Origin: a virus
IMG/VR virus record: IMGVR_UViG_3300009529_000010
Span: 1-55,204 of that record
Direction: 5' to 3' (one strand)
Length of the DNA: 55,204 nt
In this document: positions 21,754 through 29,320 of the stretch, piece by piece
Layout of the letters: every line of letters begins with the position of its first letter
Position numbering within the stretch: position 1 is the first letter of the stretch
Translations under genes and position numbers: made by a program
The notes under the pieces: generated by a model
Database searches by the model: none
The model's input: the letters and a program-made list of their open reading frames with translations, nothing else
Told to the model about the DNA's origin: nothing

Positions 21754-22401
21754 TCATTCCTCCGAACCGCGGGCTTTGAACACGGCCTTGTTCCCTACCT
21801 TCGAAACAAGGTACGCCTGATCTGCCGCTCCGACGACCGCATCATCATGAGACACTAGGAGGATATCCAAGTTCAAGCGCTTGGCCAACGTTGCCAAGAA
21901 CCCCGAAGCCCGATCCACGTATTTATCCGCGACAGCCCCCAACGTCTCATCCAAAAGAAGGAGGGGGCGCAGACCCCTCCTGAAGACCACCGAGATGCGC
22001 ATAAACACCTCTTCCATGGTCATCACAGCACCTCCGAACAGATCATCGGACAGCCCCTCGATCTCTGTCCCATCGGGTCGTTTCTCCACTGTAAGGAGAG
22101 ACACCGTGACCTTGCCGCGTTCTTCCTTGACTACCGCCTTGACGGAAAGCTCCTGGTCGTGAAAGATCTCCTGGAGACCTTCCGTCTGAAGTTTCTCGAT
22201 CGCAGCAACTCCAGACATCACCTCATTGTCAATAAGGCGCCGGAGAAGGCCCCCCACAAGTTCCAAGAGCTGCTCTTCGTTCTCCAGGGCTTTGATCTTG
22301 GCCGTATTCGCGTCGATCTGATCAACCACAGCATCGCGCAGGGCTACTGCGCGGTCTGCCATCGTCTTGACGGAATCAATATTGGGAGGGGCCGGAAGCA
22401 T
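21754..22401 (-). CDS. C-terminal half of a split Rad50/SbcC-like ATPase
   Basis: About 215 residues from the ATG at 22401, which overlaps the clamp gene stop. It starts with a coiled-coil stretch (IDANTAKIKALENEEQLLEL), then a mixed domain, then FGGAVMTMEEVFMRISVVFR in the place of the ABC signature, Walker B RPLLLLDETLGAV and an H-loop LNLDILLVSHDD. These are the C-terminal ATPase parts of Rad50, SbcC or RecF-type proteins. There is no Walker A. The matching N-terminal half, with Walker A and a zinc hook at its very end, is the gene at 27.0-28.1 kb. Together they would make one complete ATPase that should act with the SbcD/Mre11-like nuclease at 24.8-25.8 kb. Confidence 0.85.
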   Translation of the reverse strand: MLPAPPNIDSVKTMADRAVALRDAVVDQIDANTAKIKALENEEQLLELVGGLLRRLIDNEVMSGVAAIEKLQTEGLQEIFHDQELSVKAVVKEERGKVTVSLLTVEKRPDGTEIEGLSDDLFGGAVMTMEEVFMRISVVFRRGLRPLLLLDETLGAVADKYVDRASGFLATLAKRLNLDILLVSHDDAVVGAADQAYLVSKVGNKAVFKARGSEE

Positions 22402-23570
22402 CACATCATCCAGACCAATATGACAAGGTAATCATCCTTGTCTCGGCTTTCCTGAAAGCGAGAGAACCCACCGGCCACTTTTCCGGCGGGGTTCTTCTTC
22501 AGGTTCAAGCCCATCGTGATCTCGTCTCCCTTGTACTGGGAAAGCACACGCATCAAATGCGGAGCAGGGAGATCAAACCCCTCCTCCGGGAAGGCGGCTG
22601 TCTGTGCCTCGTCGGCGTCGAACTTGGAGCCGGCTTCCATTTCCAAGTGGTAGATGTTCCGCGACCCCGAAGCCGAGGCCATACTGACCATCACCTGACC
22701 CCGATCCGCCTTGAAGTTCACGCGGATATCTTCCTTCGAGGCTCCGGCCTCAAGTGCTTGAATCGAGGACTTCAGATCAGCGGTTTTGAGGTTCCAGGCA
22801 AACTGGTCATCATCCGTGCCGACCGTGAGATCGGGAAAGGCGTGGGAGGGGCGCCCAACGTTGAGAAGGCTACTATCGTTTCGGATAATGAACATCCGGT
22901 TATCGGTCTCTCGGATCTCCACCTCCTCATCCCCGGCAGCCGTCAAAAACCCGATCACCGACCCCAGGTCTTTGCCATGGACCCGGAACGCCCCGTTACC
23001 CTGCAACGCATCCAACTTGACCACCCCCAGGGAAGCCTTGTCTGTCGCTTCCAAAAGCCGCTCTCCGTTATACTCCTTGACCTCCGTCACCGAAAGACGC
23101 GGGTTCTTGGTGTCCTTGTCGGAAATGAACAGCTTGACATGAGAAAAGGCCGAGGCCAGGCTTTTGGCCCCAATACGGTAACCCTCTTCAGAGGAGGAAA
23201 ATTGGTCGTCCCAGTAAGGGAACAACTCGGGATCAAGGGAGTTGAGACGAATCGAGCCCTTCGGACTCTTGGCAACGATCTTCTTGTCTGAGGTGACCTC
23301 CAGCGACAAGACCGAGTTCTCGACTGCTGCGATCCACGACTTGAGGCGCTTGGCCTCTACCGTGAATGATGTAGCGGCTTCGCTCACCGTCGCATTGCAG
23401 ATCAATGGAGCCGATACCCCAACCCTCCCGTTATTGGCCAACACCTCAGTATGGCCGTCAACATGGCGAAACACAAAGTGAGTCGTCATATCAGCTCCAG
23501 TACCGGCTACTCCAACGGCAGCCACCGAAAGGGTGGCCTCTAAATCTCGTTTCGTGACTTCAATTTTCAT
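22401..23570 (-). CDS. DNA polymerase sliding clamp (beta-clamp-like)
   Basis: A 389-residue protein, close to the 366-residue E. coli beta clamp. It begins MKIEVTKRDLEATLSVAAVG, as DnaN proteins do. The repeated clamp features are visible: SFTVEAKRLKSWIAAVENSV, SIRLNSLDPELFPYWDD, HAFPDLTVG and a C-terminal DDYLVILVW, where beta clamps end with a VVMP-type strand. The sequence is divergent. The clamp ring would be loaded by the DnaX-, delta- and delta-prime-like proteins. The start overlaps the small coiled-coil gene by 11 nt. A viral PCNA-like clamp is the alternative, but the length and domain pattern favour the bacterial type. Confidence 0.82.
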   Translation of the reverse strand: MKIEVTKRDLEATLSVAAVGVAGTGADMTTHFVFRHVDGHTEVLANNGRVGVSAPLICNATVSEAATSFTVEAKRLKSWIAAVENSVLSLEVTSDKKIVAKSPKGSIRLNSLDPELFPYWDDQFSSSEEGYRIGAKSLASAFSHVKLFISDKDTKNPRLSVTEVKEYNGERLLEATDKASLGVVKLDALQGNGAFRVHGKDLGSVIGFLTAAGDEEVEIRETDNRMFIIRNDSSLLNVGRPSHAFPDLTVGTDDDQFAWNLKTADLKSSIQALEAGASKEDIRVNFKADRGQVMVSMASASGSRNIYHLEMEAGSKFDADEAQTAAFPEEGFDLPAPHLMRVLSQYKGDEITMGLNLKKNPAGKVAGGFSRFQESRDKDDYLVILVWMM

Positions 23571-23835
23571 TCTTGACTCCCAGGTACGGTCGGAGCTTCT
23601 GCTCCGTTTCAGTGTTGTCTTTTTCCAGTGCTTCCACTGCTGTCTTGTAGCGTTGCTCTAGCTGCTCCAAAACCCCATCAATCTGTTCTGGCTCGAACTT
23701 TTTCTGTCGACACTCTTCCTCGACAGCTTTGAGGTTCTTCAAAGCCTCTTCCCAACGACCCTTGAGGCGCTCCACCTCTCGGGAGAGCTGGTTCCGCTTC
23801 TTTACGGCCTGATCAAAACGGTCATCTAATTCCAT
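23560..23835 (-). CDS. small coiled-coil protein, possible third piece of the Rad50-like complex
   Basis: A protein of 91 residues, almost wholly coiled coil: KRNQLSREVERLKGRWEEAL, KNLKAVEEECRQKKFEPEQI, LEQLEQRYKTAVEALEKD. The make-up and the short linker KKFEPEQIDGV resemble an internal stretch of an SbcC/Rad50 arm. It lies in the operon that contains both halves of the split ATPase and the SbcD-like nuclease. Whether it belongs to that complex is inference. A free-standing structural coiled coil is the alternative. Confidence 0.75.
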   Translation of the reverse strand: MELDDRFDQAVKKRNQLSREVERLKGRWEEALKNLKAVEEECRQKKFEPEQIDGVLEQLEQRYKTAVEALEKDNTETEQKLRPYLGVKNEN

Positions 23836-23853
23836 AAGGACACCTGTGGTCTA

Positions 23854-24780
23854 CTACTCCAAAATGTCCCCAAGGAAACCCACGTCGACCGGTCCATTCG
23901 ATGCGTCAATCGTTGGCAAAGATTTTGACCCCCGACGCCGGCTCCGATTGATCTCCTTCGCCGCTTGACGCTCAGGGCACACTTCCTCAAAGTCGCACAA
24001 ACGGCAATGTTTTGCCACTGTTCGAGCCGGAAACTCCTCACGAATCATACCCCGCTTGGCGACCACGGCTCGATCCGCAAGGGCTCTTAGGTCTCGCCTG
24101 GTAAAGTCTACCCACTCCACGCCAGTTTCCCCCTCTTCTTCATCGTGAGGGTACCGAAACCACACAAAAGCTAAGCGATCAGGCAAACTCCCATACTCCA
24201 GAGAGTATGCCAAGGCGTAGTATCGAAGCTGGTCTGGGTTGACATACTTCATCTTCGTGGCGGAGTTCTTTCCGTCCAAGATGGTGACCCCTGTATCGTC
24301 CCTTCGGATCAGGAAGTCGACTTTACCCGCAATCTTGATGTCCCCCAACATGCCGGAAACCTTCACCTCAGATTTCGCATAGGGGCCCAAGAATTTGTGG
24401 GCTTTCATCGTCCGAAGATACCCGATTACCCCAGACTCACACGTCTCCAATAGCTCTTCCCACGAGGGGGAGAAGTGCCAATCGATGTACATGGTTGGGT
24501 AAGTCTCGGCAAACCTGTCACGAGTCATCTGGATAAGTCGGTCTTCTACATCCCCGCTTTCTTTCCAAAGAAAGCCGTTGTAAAAATCCTCCAACACCCC
24601 TTGAATGACAATGCCCATAAGGGCATGGTGCTTAGACTTATCGTCAGGCCGCTGTTTGGGCTTCCCCGGGCCACGTCCTAAATCAATACCATCCCAGCCC
24701 GAATACCACAGGAACTTCTGCGGGCACGTTTCGTAATTGAAAAGCTGGGTGGGGTACAGAGCGCTTTTTGGTCCAGCCAT
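23854..24780 (-). CDS. Cas4/RecB-type PD-(D/E)XK exonuclease with four-cysteine cluster
   Basis: A 308-residue nuclease. FNYETCPQKFLWYSG gives the first Cys (Cys19), and AKHCRLCDFEEVCPE gives Cys259, Cys262 and Cys268; this 1+3 arrangement holds an iron-sulfur cluster in Cas4, AddB and similar enzymes. The catalytic core shows HHALMGIVIQGVLEDF, GKVDFLIRRDD (motif II Asp), VTILDGKNSA (the D-G-K form of the DxK motif) and QLRYYALAYSLEY (motif with Gln and Tyr). It should degrade or resect DNA ends. It sits directly before the SbcD-like gene in a recombination operon. No CRISPR array or cas genes are in the window, so a Cas role is not supported. Confidence 0.88.
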   Translation of the reverse strand: MAGPKSALYPTQLFNYETCPQKFLWYSGWDGIDLGRGPGKPKQRPDDKSKHHALMGIVIQGVLEDFYNGFLWKESGDVEDRLIQMTRDRFAETYPTMYIDWHFSPSWEELLETCESGVIGYLRTMKAHKFLGPYAKSEVKVSGMLGDIKIAGKVDFLIRRDDTGVTILDGKNSATKMKYVNPDQLRYYALAYSLEYGSLPDRLAFVWFRYPHDEEEGETGVEWVDFTRRDLRALADRAVVAKRGMIREEFPARTVAKHCRLCDFEEVCPERQAAKEINRSRRRGSKSLPTIDASNGPVDVGFLGDILE

Positions 24781-24792
24781 GCTGCCCCCACA

Positions 24793-25800
24793 CTACCGCT
24801 TCGTCGCCCTCTCCATGTAATCCAATGCCCGGTCTTTTACCTTGCCCGGAATCCCGTCAAGATTCTCGATCGTCTGCTCCAATGTCGAGGAAACCGTCCC
24901 CTCCAGGGACTTGGCCACCTCATCAACAAAGGCATCCATAGTCATGGATCGGGATTCTTCACGGACCCGTTTCTCCATATCGAAGACTTCCGACGAGGGG
25001 CGCACCTTGAGACGCTGAACTTCGATCTTGGGTTGCGACTTGCCTTCGAAGGTCAGGATTGCCACCCCAGGCTTTCGGTCAACGTTGTCTTGACTCAACG
25101 ATCCTCGGGTAAGCGACCCGATGTTCACCACCCACTTACCCGGGGCGATTTCGGTAACTCCCTGGTCCTTATGCCAGTGGCCAAAAAGCCAAACCGAAAC
25201 CTCCGGGTTCAAATCTACCAGGTCCGAATACTTGATGATGTCTTCACCGGCGAACATGGAGCCCCCATGTGGAGAAGCCAGAACATGTGCCATGACGACC
25301 AAATGGTCCGCCTCCCCCTTCTCGATATCTCGAAAATGGTCCAGATCATATCTCGGCCCGTGGTAGGGGATCCCAGCGACTTTCACCCTACAGGTGCTGT
25401 CTGAGAACTCCTGCTCATACCGTTGCGTTACCTGCCCCTCTTCGCGCACGGTGTAGCAACGACGAAAAACACCGCTCTCGAATAAGGTCCCAAGAGGGCT
25501 TTCGGGGAGGGCTGAAATTTGACTGTGTCGGCAGTCATGATTGCCCACGTTAGCAAAAACGGGACAAGGGTAGGCGGCATGAACCCCTACAATCCGCTGA
25601 ACCAGGCTGTGCGTTGTTCTTGAGGGAGTCTTGGGGTTGAAGAAGTCCCCGCCGTCGAGAACAGCAGTTGCGCCTACCTGCTCGGCGATCTGACCTACCT
25701 GGGTGAGTTTGTCCATCACCGTTGTAGCCCAATCGTCCGTGCGACTCGCCGGAGACTGATCGGCACAATGAACGTCTGTTCGCCAAACAAAACGAATCAC
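24793..25800 (-). CDS. sbcD: SbcD/Mre11-like metallophosphoesterase
   Basis: A protein of 335 residues starting at GTG. All five phosphoesterase motifs are present: RTDVHCAD (Asp9, His11), LDGGDFF (Asp52), GNHD (Asn87-His88-Asp89), VVMAHVLASPHGG (His172) and GHWH (His208, His210). These bind two metal ions in SbcD and Mre11, which cut hairpins and trim ends with an SbcC/Rad50 partner. The C-terminal helical part (FDMEKRVREESRSMTMDAFV) resembles the region that docks on the Rad50 coiled coil. The start overlaps the nucleotidyltransferase stop by 4 nt. Confidence 0.93.
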   Translation of the reverse strand: MIRFVWRTDVHCADQSPASRTDDWATTVMDKLTQVGQIAEQVGATAVLDGGDFFNPKTPSRTTHSLVQRIVGVHAAYPCPVFANVGNHDCRHSQISALPESPLGTLFESGVFRRCYTVREEGQVTQRYEQEFSDSTCRVKVAGIPYHGPRYDLDHFRDIEKGEADHLVVMAHVLASPHGGSMFAGEDIIKYSDLVDLNPEVSVWLFGHWHKDQGVTEIAPGKWVVNIGSLTRGSLSQDNVDRKPGVAILTFEGKSQPKIEVQRLKVRPSSEVFDMEKRVREESRSMTMDAFVDEVAKSLEGTVSSTLEQTIENLDGIPGKVKDRALDYMERATKR

Positions 25801-26996
25801 GAAGACACCCCCATATCCAGCATCTGCCGGTACAGATTGTCGATCGCTTCCATGTTTGGTGCCCGTGGGAGCGTCGAGTGTTTCGCAGCTTCCTCCACCT
25901 CCCTTTCGATACTCTCTGCCTGTTCGATCAGCTCGTCATACGACAGCTCTCCTCGACGAATCGACAAAAGCTCTTTAGCGTCTGGACGGCGAACCTGGAC
26001 CTCACCGTCTCGAAGGATTTCGAGCCCCATCCGCATCAGTCGGATAAGGTGGGACCCGTGCTTGCAATCGAAACCAAACTTGGCTTCCAATTCAGCCCGT
26101 GCAGGATTCCGATCCTGTTTCCATTTCTGGAACTGTTGCCACCCCTTGCGAGCCATCCGATAGGAGCGTTCGGCCTTGATCACGGAGAGGGTCTCTGCGG
26201 GGACCCCAATGGATACAGCCGCCTGATGATACATTTGATCCTCGTAGTCATCCGATTGGGTCTTCAGGAGAGACCCATAAAAGTCCCGCACCCGTTCTCG
26301 GAACACGTCTTGAGACGCCCCCGTGATCTCGATATCATCCTCCATCTCCCACTCACGCAAAACCTTCTTGACCGCCTCATCTACGGTGTTTCGGATGTCT
26401 GCCGGTAACACGCTTTCCTCGGGAAGCCCAAAATCTGCCCGCATGGGTTCTTTTTGCGGAGGGTGTAGAAGCCATTCCCGATGGCCTTTGATCCTTCGAA
26501 GCTGCGAATGCGCGTACCCCAGGAAGGTATGCTTGCACTTTTTTGAGAGGAACAGATCCCTTTGTTCCCGAGCCAGCTCCCAAACAGGGGTTCGGAACAG
26601 AACATCTCGCTCCGCCACGAAAAGCAACTCCAGGATGTTCGGGTTCGCATTCGCGGCTAACTTGAGGAACTTCTGGAGTCCGAAAACTACCAGATCGATG
26701 TTCTGGTGCTTCATGTACGACAAAGACGCCGTATCATGAACCGCGAGACGGTTCAGGGCCTGAACAGAGTTCGGGCCCCATGATGCCTCTTGCGTGGCGG
26801 CCGTGTACTGCTCAAAGGTCTTGAAGACAGAATCTCGTATCTCACGTGGGGGGATGCACACTCCCCGAATATCCACGTCAGAATCAGGACCCGCCATGCC
26901 GTAAGCGTGGGAACCGCTAAGCGTCAAAAAGACCGTAGAAGGGTCGAGGTTAAAGTGCATGGGTCTTATACTCTCAAGGCGCAGGGGTCGTGCCAC
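25797..26996 (-). CDS. nucleotidyltransferase, RlaP-like family
   Basis: A 399-residue protein. LTLSGSHAYGMAGPDSDVDI followed by RGVCIPP is the polymerase-beta-type active-site motif in the form GSxAYG...DSDxDxRGV, typical of the predicted nucleotidyltransferases of the RNA-repair-associated RlaP type (PF10127 to my knowledge). The NIDLVVFGLQKFLKLAANAN segment and a C-terminal helical region complete the family's layout. Members are thought to transfer nucleotides to RNA or other substrates, but no substrate is proven. It starts at GTG with AGGAGG 6 nt upstream and lies inside the Rad50-SbcD operon, where its purpose is unclear. Confidence 0.85.
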   Translation of the reverse strand: MARPLRLESIRPMHFNLDPSTVFLTLSGSHAYGMAGPDSDVDIRGVCIPPREIRDSVFKTFEQYTAATQEASWGPNSVQALNRLAVHDTASLSYMKHQNIDLVVFGLQKFLKLAANANPNILELLFVAERDVLFRTPVWELAREQRDLFLSKKCKHTFLGYAHSQLRRIKGHREWLLHPPQKEPMRADFGLPEESVLPADIRNTVDEAVKKVLREWEMEDDIEITGASQDVFRERVRDFYGSLLKTQSDDYEDQMYHQAAVSIGVPAETLSVIKAERSYRMARKGWQQFQKWKQDRNPARAELEAKFGFDCKHGSHLIRLMRMGLEILRDGEVQVRRPDAKELLSIRRGELSYDELIEQAESIEREVEEAAKHSTLPRAPNMEAIDNLYRQMLDMGVSS

Positions 26997-27011
26997 GGAG
27001 AACCTCCTGGC

Positions 27012-28094
27012 TCACACACTCTTACCGCACGCGGGGCATTCCTCCATGCCCCCGAGTAGCTCATGGACTAGATCGTGGGCCTTCCGGTGCTGGTCGGCAG
27101 CGTCAGTTACTTGACGGTCAAGGTCGTTGCACGTCTTTTGAGCGGCGAGCAAGCGACGCTTGATCCCTCGAACCTCCGCCATCACGGCTCGGATTTTCTC
27201 TAGCTTGGAGACCTGGGCCTCCTCGAACGAAATCTGGTCAAGATCAGACTTCAACTTCTCGGCCGAAGTCAGGTCTCTCTGTGCCGCAAGCAACCGACCT
27301 TTGATCCTCTGGGTTGCCTCCCGATTGGTCTTGAGCGTCCGAAGTCGTTCAATGTGGTCATCCGGAGAAACCGACAGCTTTTCAACGCCAGAAAGTGACT
27401 CCACTGCCGCAGTAGCATCAGCCCACTGCGCCCTCAAGGTTTCAAGTAGGGCATGGGCGTCCCTCATCTTGACGGCCTTCGTTCGCCGTGCGGCCATTTG
27501 TTCGACGATGTCGACCACATCCTCCAGCCCCTGATAGTGGGCCAGTTTGTTCGCCAGGTCCTCGGCGTCCGACCTTCTCACTCGAAGGTCGGCTCGCGCC
27601 TTCTTTCGGTCCGACTCGCAAAACTTCAGAGCACGATTGAGCTGGTTAACACGCTCAACGTCTGCGACGGCCTCCGCCAAAACAGACCCAGGCTTATCCA
27701 GCAAGAAGTTCACCCCTCGGATTTGAGGGGCGATCTGAGGCCAATATTTATCATCATTCAGCGTGACTGCCGTAACACCAAATGCAGCAACCTCGGGAGC
27801 TACTCCGTGCCCTACGTTATCGAACACCTTCCCGTTGACGACATATCGATTGACCTTGGAACCCTTTTCCCATGTCAATGTCTGCCCGTCATCGAAGGTC
27901 AAATCTACAGTGCAGTGCTTTGCCCCATGCCGGACAAAGTTGGTCCCGGTTCGATTCGTAAAAACGCCCTGAATTGCACGAAACAACGCGGACTTCCCCG
28001 CGTTGTTCGTGCCTGTCACGACGGTAAACCCGTCAATAGTAAGGGTTACGTCCTCTAGGGACTGGAAGTTCCTTACTCGGACTTGGAGCGCCAT
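27012..28094 (-). CDS. N-terminal half of a split Rad50/SbcC-like ATPase ending at the zinc hook
   Basis: 360 residues. MALQVRVRNFQSLEDVTLTI opens the ATPase head, followed by Walker A VVTGTNNAGKSALFRAI (Lys near residue 35). The Q-loop region follows, and from about residue 150 onward a long coiled coil with several heptad runs. The protein stops right after EECPACGKSV, where CPAC (Cys353, Cys356) is a zinc-hook motif as found at the tip of the Rad50 coiled coil. Walker B and the H-loop are missing; they are in the gene at 21.8-22.4 kb. A break exactly at the hook makes this look like a genuine fission, not random decay. Confidence 0.9.
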   Translation of the reverse strand: MALQVRVRNFQSLEDVTLTIDGFTVVTGTNNAGKSALFRAIQGVFTNRTGTNFVRHGAKHCTVDLTFDDGQTLTWEKGSKVNRYVVNGKVFDNVGHGVAPEVAAFGVTAVTLNDDKYWPQIAPQIRGVNFLLDKPGSVLAEAVADVERVNQLNRALKFCESDRKKARADLRVRRSDAEDLANKLAHYQGLEDVVDIVEQMAARRTKAVKMRDAHALLETLRAQWADATAAVESLSGVEKLSVSPDDHIERLRTLKTNREATQRIKGRLLAAQRDLTSAEKLKSDLDQISFEEAQVSKLEKIRAVMAEVRGIKRRLLAAQKTCNDLDRQVTDAADQHRKAHDLVHELLGGMEECPACGKSV

Positions 28095-28099
28095 GCTCC

Positions 28100-29320
28100 T
28101 TATACGCCTTCGATGATCGCCTGGATATCAGCGTCCAGATCGGCATCCTCAAGGTCCCCCTCAGCGTCGGAGTAGTCATCGTCGTCATCCCCCGCATCGT
28201 CGCTCTTGGACGCCATGTGAGGCTTGATCTGGTCATGGAGCATCCGAACCAACGACGGGTCCTTTGCAAGCAAGGTTCTGAGCTTTTCTGTACCTTGAAG
28301 CCGCACCTGCTCCCCATCCGGGCGACTCCATTCCAACCATGATCCCGCCTTCTTGATCAGGTTGTACGAGATGGCGATCTCCAGAATGGACCGGATATCG
28401 TCAATTCCCTCGCCAAACCGGATGTAGAACTTCTCCTCATTGCCCTGAGAGGGGGCTACTTTGCACTTGTCAAGCTTGGCCTTGACGATGATCCCAAACA
28501 CGGAATCCTCGGTCTTGTTTGAGATCGCGGAGTAGTCCGTTGTTTTCTCGGTCTTGATCTTCTGGAGCTTCATCCGGAGCGCAGAATAGAACTTCCACGC
28601 TTTACCGCCCTGGACCGTAAAGGTGTCCCCATACCCCATCGTGTTGATGGAGTCTCGAATCTGAGAGATTCCGATGATGGTGGAGTTGGTCTTCTGCGTC
28701 CGATTTCGCAACTTGGGGAGGAACTGAGACCAGGCAGCAGCGTTTGCACCCACCCGACCTTGATCCCCGGTCTCTTTGATCGATTTCTCAAAGTAAGCCT
28801 TGGGGACACCCGCACCAACCGAATCCAGTACAATCAGTGTGACTCCAGAGGAGGCCATGGTCCAAAGGATTGCCAACCCCTCCTCAAGGGTCTCCGGCTG
28901 TGCCAGCATGAACTTGCTTTGATCCTCAACCGGGACTCCAAGGGTCTTGGCATAGCCCGGAACGATCTCGTTCTCCCAGTCGATATAACACACCGTCCCA
29001 CCATCACGGATCGTCTGTGCCGCAATTGTCAGAGCCAAGGTGGTCTTTCCGGACGACTCGTGACCGTAGAGGTTCATGATCCTCCCTCGGGGGATGCCCG
29101 GACACGGGGACACCCCAATGCTATTGGGCTTCCCTCCAATAAGATAGTCAATGACCATCGATCCGGAAGGAAGATGGGGGACAGACTCGGTCAGCGACTT
29201 GGAGTCTAGGTTTACAAGCCAATCGTCCTTCTTGAGGGACGCTTTGATTGCTGCCGCGGCGGCCATCAGGGGGTTGTTGGCATCTGCCTTGGCGGTCTTT
29301 TTTGTGGTCTTTTTAGCCAT
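28100..29320 (-). CDS. recA: RecA/UvsX-type recombinase
   Basis: A 406-residue protein. The core has GIPRGRIMNLYGHESSGKTT (Walker A), YIDWENEIVPGY (catalytic Glu region), LIVLDSVGAG (Walker B) and a DNA-binding loop followed by STIIGISQIRDSI. A phage-type insertion precedes the C-terminal domain. The last 45 residues are very acidic (DDAGDDDDDYSDAEGD), as in RecA tails that modulate DNA binding. It should pair homologous strands during recombination-dependent replication. The neighbours (RuvC-like, SSB-like, Rad50-like, SbcD-like) make a full repair set. The N-terminal Lys/Thr-rich tail is unusual but common in phage RecA. Confidence 0.95.
   Translation of the reverse strand: MAKKTTKKTAKADANNPLMAAAAAIKASLKKDDWLVNLDSKSLTESVPHLPSGSMVIDYLIGGKPNSIGVSPCPGIPRGRIMNLYGHESSGKTTLALTIAAQTIRDGGTVCYIDWENEIVPGYAKTLGVPVEDQSKFMLAQPETLEEGLAILWTMASSGVTLIVLDSVGAGVPKAYFEKSIKETGDQGRVGANAAAWSQFLPKLRNRTQKTNSTIIGISQIRDSINTMGYGDTFTVQGGKAWKFYSALRMKLQKIKTEKTTDYSAISNKTEDSVFGIIVKAKLDKCKVAPSQGNEEKFYIRFGEGIDDIRSILEIAISYNLIKKAGSWLEWSRPDGEQVRLQGTEKLRTLLAKDPSLVRMLHDQIKPHMASKSDDAGDDDDDYSDAEGDLEDADLDADIQAIIEGV

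Follow-up and report, generated by a model that had tools for sequence, protein, structure and literature searches.

In models of Rad50 and SMC proteins, the two arm strands that tie the ATPase head to the hook are assumed to belong to one chain. IMG/VR virus record IMGVR_UViG_3300009529_000010, all 55,204 bases of which were analysed here (the window; the record is probably incomplete), raises the question of whether such an ATPase can be assembled from separate polypeptides, as the two lobes of a Rad50/SbcC-like protein are predicted to be encoded there by two open reading frames (ORFs), designated the N-half and the C-half. An earlier reading of the sequence alone (the sequence-only reading) had proposed a stable multi-chain Mre11-Rad50-type module in a phage, split just past the zinc hook, and the recurrence of both the split and its gene set in other phages supports that proposal. 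With a probability of roughly 80%, the locus encodes a natural multi-chain Rad50/SbcC in which the N-half and C-half would reconstitute one ABC-type head without being coupled in one chain, and would act with SbcD and RecA on phage DNA ends.

Complementary lobes in two reading frames

Both ORFs were found where the sequence-only reading had placed them, one having Walker A and a terminal CPAC and the other having Walker B and an H-loop without Walker A (see Table 1 for details). The window N-half matched AAA_15 (2e-9) and AAA_23 (5.3e-6) over the Walker A region, and also the PHROG family phrog_16465 (1.8e-21). When a profile of 70 relatives was used, the top match for the N-lobe was an OLD-family ATPase, followed by SMC1A, RecN and Rad50, and the other end of the profile independently matched solved Rad50 zinc hooks (1l8d, 1.4e-4; 6zff, 1.6e-4). 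The AlphaFold model (predicted local distance difference test score, pLDDT, of 88) consists of an N-lobe, helices at residues 136-186, 190-234, 245-287 and 292-347 and then the hook, and 9a9j_A and 1f2u_A ranked first in the fold comparison. The N-half has the N-terminal ABC lobe that characterises Rad50/SbcC, complete with Walker A and Q-loop, and its arm is tipped by a CxxC hook which is predicted to bind zinc. The window protein ends four residues beyond CPAC (...ECPACGKSV), and the CxxC lies 7-25 amino acids before the stop codon in 96 of 99 distinct N-half ORFs; this regularity, with the lack of fused ORFs described below, far exceeds what chance would produce. Across 70 distinct N-half sequences only Q11, the two hook cysteines and four residues located within Walker A and directly behind it are invariant; because both hook cysteines are conserved as strictly as the Walker A lysine (70/70), the split protein is under selection.

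The window C-half gave no match in Pfam and only weak ABC matches in a single-sequence search of the PDB, while its PHROG match was phrog_15167, annotated 'ATPase' (2e-15). The top PDB matches for a profile of 66 relatives were the C-lobe of Pyrococcus Rad50 (3qkr_B, 2.4e-9; 1ii8_B, 3.8e-9). The AlphaFold2 model (pLDDT 95) is a single helix (residues 9-80) followed by the C-lobe, and its fold resembles the C-lobes of Rad50 and SMC proteins (1f2u_B and 9a9j_B, template modelling score about 0.75 by target length). The C-terminal ABC lobe of Rad50/SbcC is present, with Walker B, D-loop and H-loop, and a long N-terminal helix was also found; the C-half nevertheless holds only one arm helix, extending approximately 36-50 residues beyond the head, and not the full descending half of the arm. 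C-halves are 199-230 amino acids long in most genomes. A 153-amino-acid 'Rad50-like' protein of Spodoptera frugiperda ascovirus 1a (BFVD Q0E500) is also similar in fold to the C-half but cannot, at that length, contain both lobes; it may represent an independent split, or a fragment, in insect viruses.

Other identities for the pair were considered and rejected. An SMC, condensin or MukB protein does not fit, as there is no hinge domain and the arm ends in CxxC (N-half length 312-455 amino acids), and the RecF, RecN and OLD ATPases do not fit: RecF and RecN are single chains lacking a zinc hook, which is present here, and OLD carries a Toprim nuclease domain, which was found in neither half.

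Distribution of the split among phages

The window halves are separated by five genes, encoding an RlaP-type nucleotidyltransferase, SbcD, a PD-(D/E)XK nuclease, a 91-amino-acid helical protein (the coil protein) and a DnaN-like clamp. The SbcD-like nuclease and the small coiled-coil gene had been recognised in the sequence-only reading; the nucleotidyltransferase, the PD-(D/E)XK nuclease and the clamp are further genes lying there. A frameshift or sequencing error was ruled out by these five genes and by the recurrence of the same arrangement.

When viral contigs were searched with small alignments, 95 relatives of the C-half and 120 of the N-half were obtained, of which 80 each were kept; grouping of records with an identical protein gave 121 genome groups, nearly all of them metagenomic (contigs up to 618 kb). 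Both halves were located on one fetched piece in 71 distinct IMG/VR genomes; 70 of these 71 pairs are on the same strand, with a spacing of 1.05-9.35 kb (median 4.4 kb). No fused ORF of N-half and C-half was found among the 121 groups, so that in place of the one chain of Rad50/SbcC, where an intramolecular antiparallel coiled coil links the two lobes, two ORFs were observed throughout. All 62 loci having N-half, SbcD, coil protein and C-half showed the order N - SbcD - (PD-(D/E)XK) - coil - (clamp) - C, and in nearly all relatives the coil gene lies between the nuclease genes and the C-half. The locus usually follows RecA, which is directly upstream of the N-half in nearly all relatives, and precedes DnaX; a DnaN-like clamp is a conserved neighbour of the C-half. 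Sequence identity across the relatives is 23-50%, with hook cysteines and Walker motifs invariant.

Beyond the IMG/VR genomes, the split set which the sequence-only reading had suggested seeking in other phages was identified in five further phage records, four of them isolates. The same set is present in the 485-kb LR745208.1, and Microcystis phage Mvi-JY20 carries N-half, SbcD, coil protein and C-half. Bacillus phage vB_BboS-125 encodes the N-half as gp32, the coil protein as gp34 and the C-half as gp35; gp33 (L189 5032-5604), between the N-half and coil genes, is of AP2/HNH type and probably mobile. In Tunturiibacter phage Tunturi_5 the N-half adjoins the coil gene and the C-half is 107 kb away, and in Microbacterium phage Magritte the N-half (gp155, L009 8001-9053) and the C-half (gp2) are approximately 40 kb apart around the linear ends, gp2 being near the other end of the record beside a clamp-loader-like gene. 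The 'AAA-ATPase' of Aeromonas phage ST4 and Pseudomonas phage Dolphis (440 amino acids) has neither a CxxC hook nor a C-half match and was not counted as a split system. No bacterial or prophage carrier was found when genome contigs were scanned with the C-half.

A second, complete SbcC gene was also looked for, using AAA_23 and phrog_77 searches which recover T4, SPO1 and 14 of 14 control genomes. None was detected in the window record (probably a fragment, so that absence from that phage is unproven), in LR745208.1, in the circular Tunturi_5 or in 15 further records.

Arm architecture and candidate assembly

The sequence-only reading had supposed that a break at the hook would leave two chains able to pair as the usual antiparallel hairpin, and this part of it was not supported as stated. 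A plain cut at the hook would be expected to give the C-half a descending arm matching the N-arm in length. The N-arm, however, measures roughly 150-300 residues (in the window, four helices each 43-56 residues long) against the single helix of the C-half. Walker A-to-hook distances form two main clusters, around 322 and around 364 residues, and smaller ones around 272 and 390-411, intermediate values being scarce; the arm-length class, the borders of which were chosen after inspection of the histogram, changes at least about 20 times on the N-lobe tree. In each of the close pairs L118/L147, L114/L138 and L085/L077, the two arms are distinguished by a single clean block of 41-44 residues, and N-arms are self-similar at lags of 41 and 44, the commonest Pro-Pro spacing being 41 (the z-scores ignore relatedness). 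As judged from these patterns, the N-arm is a tandem array of predicted helical modules of approximately 43 residues (about 41-47), with 3 to 6 per arm, gained or lost singly. The lengths of the coil protein and the C-half are nearly constant by comparison (coil span 84-86 in the middle half; Spearman correlations of arm length with coil and C-half lengths 0.42 and 0.26, uncorrected for relatedness). Because the arm varies and the C-half is constant, an arm of 3 to 6 modules cannot pair along its length with the C-half, and a two-chain antiparallel hairpin reaching the hook is unlikely.

The nuclease and the coil protein complete the gene set. Although the window SbcD gave no match in a single-sequence search of the PDB, the best matches of its profile were Mre11/SbcD (8.1e-9), and the expected metal-binding residues (D9, H11, D52, N87, H88, H172, H208 and H210) are invariant in 40 sequences; the gene is taken to encode an Mre11/SbcD partner with a predicted intact active site, the partnership being indicated by gene neighbourhood. 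The coil protein matched only generic coiled coils when its profile was searched against the PDB, and it was identified by eye in seven loci which the profile had missed. Its Pro49, at the centre of the protein, is invariant in 59 sequences, and because of this central proline two helices of approximately 45 residues with a turn are suggested, each the size of one N-arm module.

The favoured arrangement is a Rad50-like ATPase composed of N-half, C-half, coil protein and SbcD, in which the N-arms would pair mainly with each other, since the arm steps by single helices of approximately 43 residues without a matching change in the C-half or coil protein. The N-protein would bring Walker A, the Q-loop, the modular helical arm and the zinc hook, and the C-protein the signature-like GG, Walker B, D-loop and H-loop; together they would form one head, two heads would dimerise around ATP, and SbcD would attach at the base of the arm. 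Two N-chains would be joined through zinc at the hook, and modules could be gained without breaking the pairing of N-arms, because both partners come from one gene. The coil protein, of about 90 amino acids, would be a third subunit bracing the helix of the C-half against the arm. The arm might instead fold on itself, but each step of one module would then shift the hook between tip and base. Homotypic pairing of N-arms leads to a more specific proposal, put forward tentatively and at less than even odds: a Rad50 of three chains, the N-chain alone extending to the hook, in which the rod of paired N-arms is free to change length in steps of approximately 43 residues, the C-lobe is clipped on by its short helix and the brace of about 90 residues, and any ATP signal to the hook would have to travel along the N-arm and no other chain.

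Several observations weigh against the multi-chain ATPase as proposed. The signature serine is absent from all 66 C-halves, although Walker B and the H-loop are kept; F, Y or R precedes a GG pair that is retained in 65 of 66, and the next residue is A, G or S, so that the canonical (S)GGE/Q signature of Rad50/SbcC is missing (the window protein has FGGA instead of SGGE). The signature serine of Rad50 contacts ATP (title of entry 1us8), and because it is lacking, ATP-driven head closure may differ and be under different regulation in the split Rad50. The predicted template modelling score of the N-half model is only 0.44, so that the overall geometry of the arm is not fixed by the model, and the Magritte N-half homologue has no CxxC at all. 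The coil profile shows weak similarity to the N-half and C-half profiles, which bears on the role given to the coil protein. Lastly, we infer complex formation by the four proteins from their genes and from models of single chains.

That weak similarity, and the position of the coil gene between the PD-(D/E)XK nuclease and the clamp in many loci, would suit a Rad50 of two chains only, in which N-half and C-half make the head and the coil protein is an unrelated neighbour such as a cofactor of the clamp or nuclease. This explanation deserves consideration but is unlikely, as the coil gene goes together with the split even in very distant phages whose neighbourhoods otherwise differ (directly before the C-half in vB_BboS-125 and Mvi-JY20, directly after the N-half in Tunturi_5) and is also present in loci that its profile missed. 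The same profile found no match in T4 or SPO1, a point weakened by its failure to detect the Tunturi_5 and Mvi-JY20 proteins.

It is considerably less probable that the halves are separate Rad50-derived enzymes of independent function, for which the wide separation of the genes in Magritte and Tunturi_5 might be cited: a complete nucleotide site is found in neither half, Walker A being confined to the N-half and Walker B and the H-loop to the C-half with near invariance, and the second half is present in every one-half genome with enough flanking sequence. Decay of a gene broken by a mobile element, which the AP2/HNH-type gene of vB_BboS-125 and inserted elements in phages of the split group might suggest, is highly improbable, since decay would not preserve hook cysteines and Walker motifs over such sequence divergence. 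Rejoining of the halves after translation by a split intein can be given hardly any credence even though three window genes look intein-bearing, as there is no room for intein halves: the N-half stops 7-25 residues past the hook and the C-half opens directly with its helix.

Neighbouring genes and related systems

Table 1. Positions in the window of the split Rad50/SbcC genes, their predicted motifs and other genes of the record
Feature	Position	Strand	Details
N-half of Rad50/SbcC, 360 amino acids	27012..28094	minus	N-lobe, four predicted arm helices, C-terminal zinc hook
Walker A GTNNAGKS, N-half residues 28-35	27990..28013	minus	G28, G33 and K34 invariant in 70 sequences
Q-loop Gln124, N-half	27723..27725	minus	Q in 69/70 sequences
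Zinc-hook CPAC, N-half residues 353-356	27027..27038	minus	both Cys in 70/70 sequences
C-half of Rad50/SbcC, 216 amino acids	21754..22404	minus	one long helix and C-lobe
Degenerate ABC signature FGG, C-half residues 123-125	22030..22038	minus	
Walker B Asp152-Glu153 (LLLLDE), C-half	21946..21951	minus	D and E in 66/66 sequences
H-loop His186 (VSHD), C-half	21847..21849	minus	H in 65/66 sequences
SbcD/Mre11-like nuclease, 335 amino acids	24793..25800	minus	Metallophos 5.6e-10
Small helical (coil) protein, 91 amino acids	23560..23835	minus	probable third subunit
RlaP-family nucleotidyltransferase (RNA repair-type)	25797..26996	minus	3.5e-25
DnaN-like sliding clamp	22401..23570	minus	directly upstream of C-half; phrog_947 3.1e-27
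RecA/UvsX-like recombinase	28100..29320	minus	upstream neighbour of N-half; RecA 4.4e-46
RecD2-like helicase, 1181 amino acids	32205-35750	minus	homing-endonuclease-like stretch, phrog_4645
Ribonucleotide reductase large subunit, 1282 amino acids	37381-41229	minus	homing-endonuclease-like stretch, phrog_4645
Terminase large subunit, 1090 amino acids	3009-6281	minus	non-terminase N-terminal stretch matching phrog_9666

The C-half begins with a GTG start codon, the next ATG being at 22401, and the stop codon of the clamp overlaps the start of the C-half as TGATG, which suggests translational coupling of the two genes. The RlaP-family gene is inserted between the N-half and SbcD in the window phage and some relatives. 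The intein-bearing appearance noted above concerns the RecD2-like helicase, the ribonucleotide reductase and the terminase large subunit; the helicase of LR745208.1, too, seems to bear an intein, though not at the site seen in the window helicase.

Compared with cellular Rad50/SbcC (Pyrococcus Rad50, E. coli SbcC), the phage system shares the folds of the N- and C-lobes, Walker A, Q-loop, Walker B, H-loop, CxxC and an adjacent Mre11/SbcD, but differs in its two polypeptides, the one-helix arm of its C-half, the lack of the signature serine, the tandem modules of approximately 43 residues in its N-arm and the extra helical protein of about 90 amino acids. Because two defining features, the one-chain hairpin and the canonical signature, are lacking, it is described here as a split variant of Rad50/SbcC and not a canonical member, and it probably works like Rad50/SbcC. 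Pyrococcus Rad50 is available as a laboratory-made two-chain protein (1f2u, 1ii8 and 9a9j), the separate N-lobe and C-lobe chains, which form one head, being visible in the entries. Since that protein assembled, an uncoupled Rad50 head can assemble; its arms were mostly removed, whereas the phage split is natural and keeps the hook. The SbcCD-type pairs of T4 (gp46/gp47) and SPO1 likewise lie near a RecA-like recombinase, clamp and clamp loader, but T4 encodes gp46 in one ORF of 564 codons and SPO1 its counterpart in one of 642 codons, each with both lobes, and neither phage gave a coil-protein match. T4 gp46/47 carries out end processing for recombination-dependent replication, and by this analogy and by gene neighbourhood the same pathway would be the most likely one for the split system.

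Non-standard architectures are also known in viruses as Mre11/Rad50 fusion proteins, for example Mimivirus R555 (PMC3175470), in which SbcD is joined to SbcC and SbcC itself is not split; two of the fusions, from Bacillus phage 0305phi8-36 and from Anaerostipes, apparently lack one of the SbcC NTPase segments (PMC3175470). Relatives of phiKZ have intact SbcC and SbcD genes widely separated in the genome (PMC5105663). Jumbo phages similarly divide one-chain cellular enzymes between two genes, as described for Pol III alpha and RNA polymerase subunits, but in the sections of that source drawn on here SbcC is an ordinary conserved ATPase and no split is mentioned (PMC7824862). PHROG families 16465 (exonuclease) and 15167 (ATPase) match the two halves, but existing libraries list them as separate families, linked neither to each other nor to a split SbcC. 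No split Rad50/SbcC was found in open-licence full texts; preprints and subscription papers were outside this coverage, and novelty is provisional.

The system, which a large group of bacterial viruses shares, suggests that a Rad50/SbcC machine can dispense with its usual one-piece hairpin. As the C-lobe is not covalently tied to the hook, the need for such a tie in communication between head and hook could be tested directly, and a tandem-repeat arm of differing lengths in related phages would be a natural ruler for tether length in the processing of DNA ends. Phage families labelled only 'exonuclease' or 'ATPase' would be explained as parts of one machine, and surveys that seek full-length SbcC would be expected to miss the split version.

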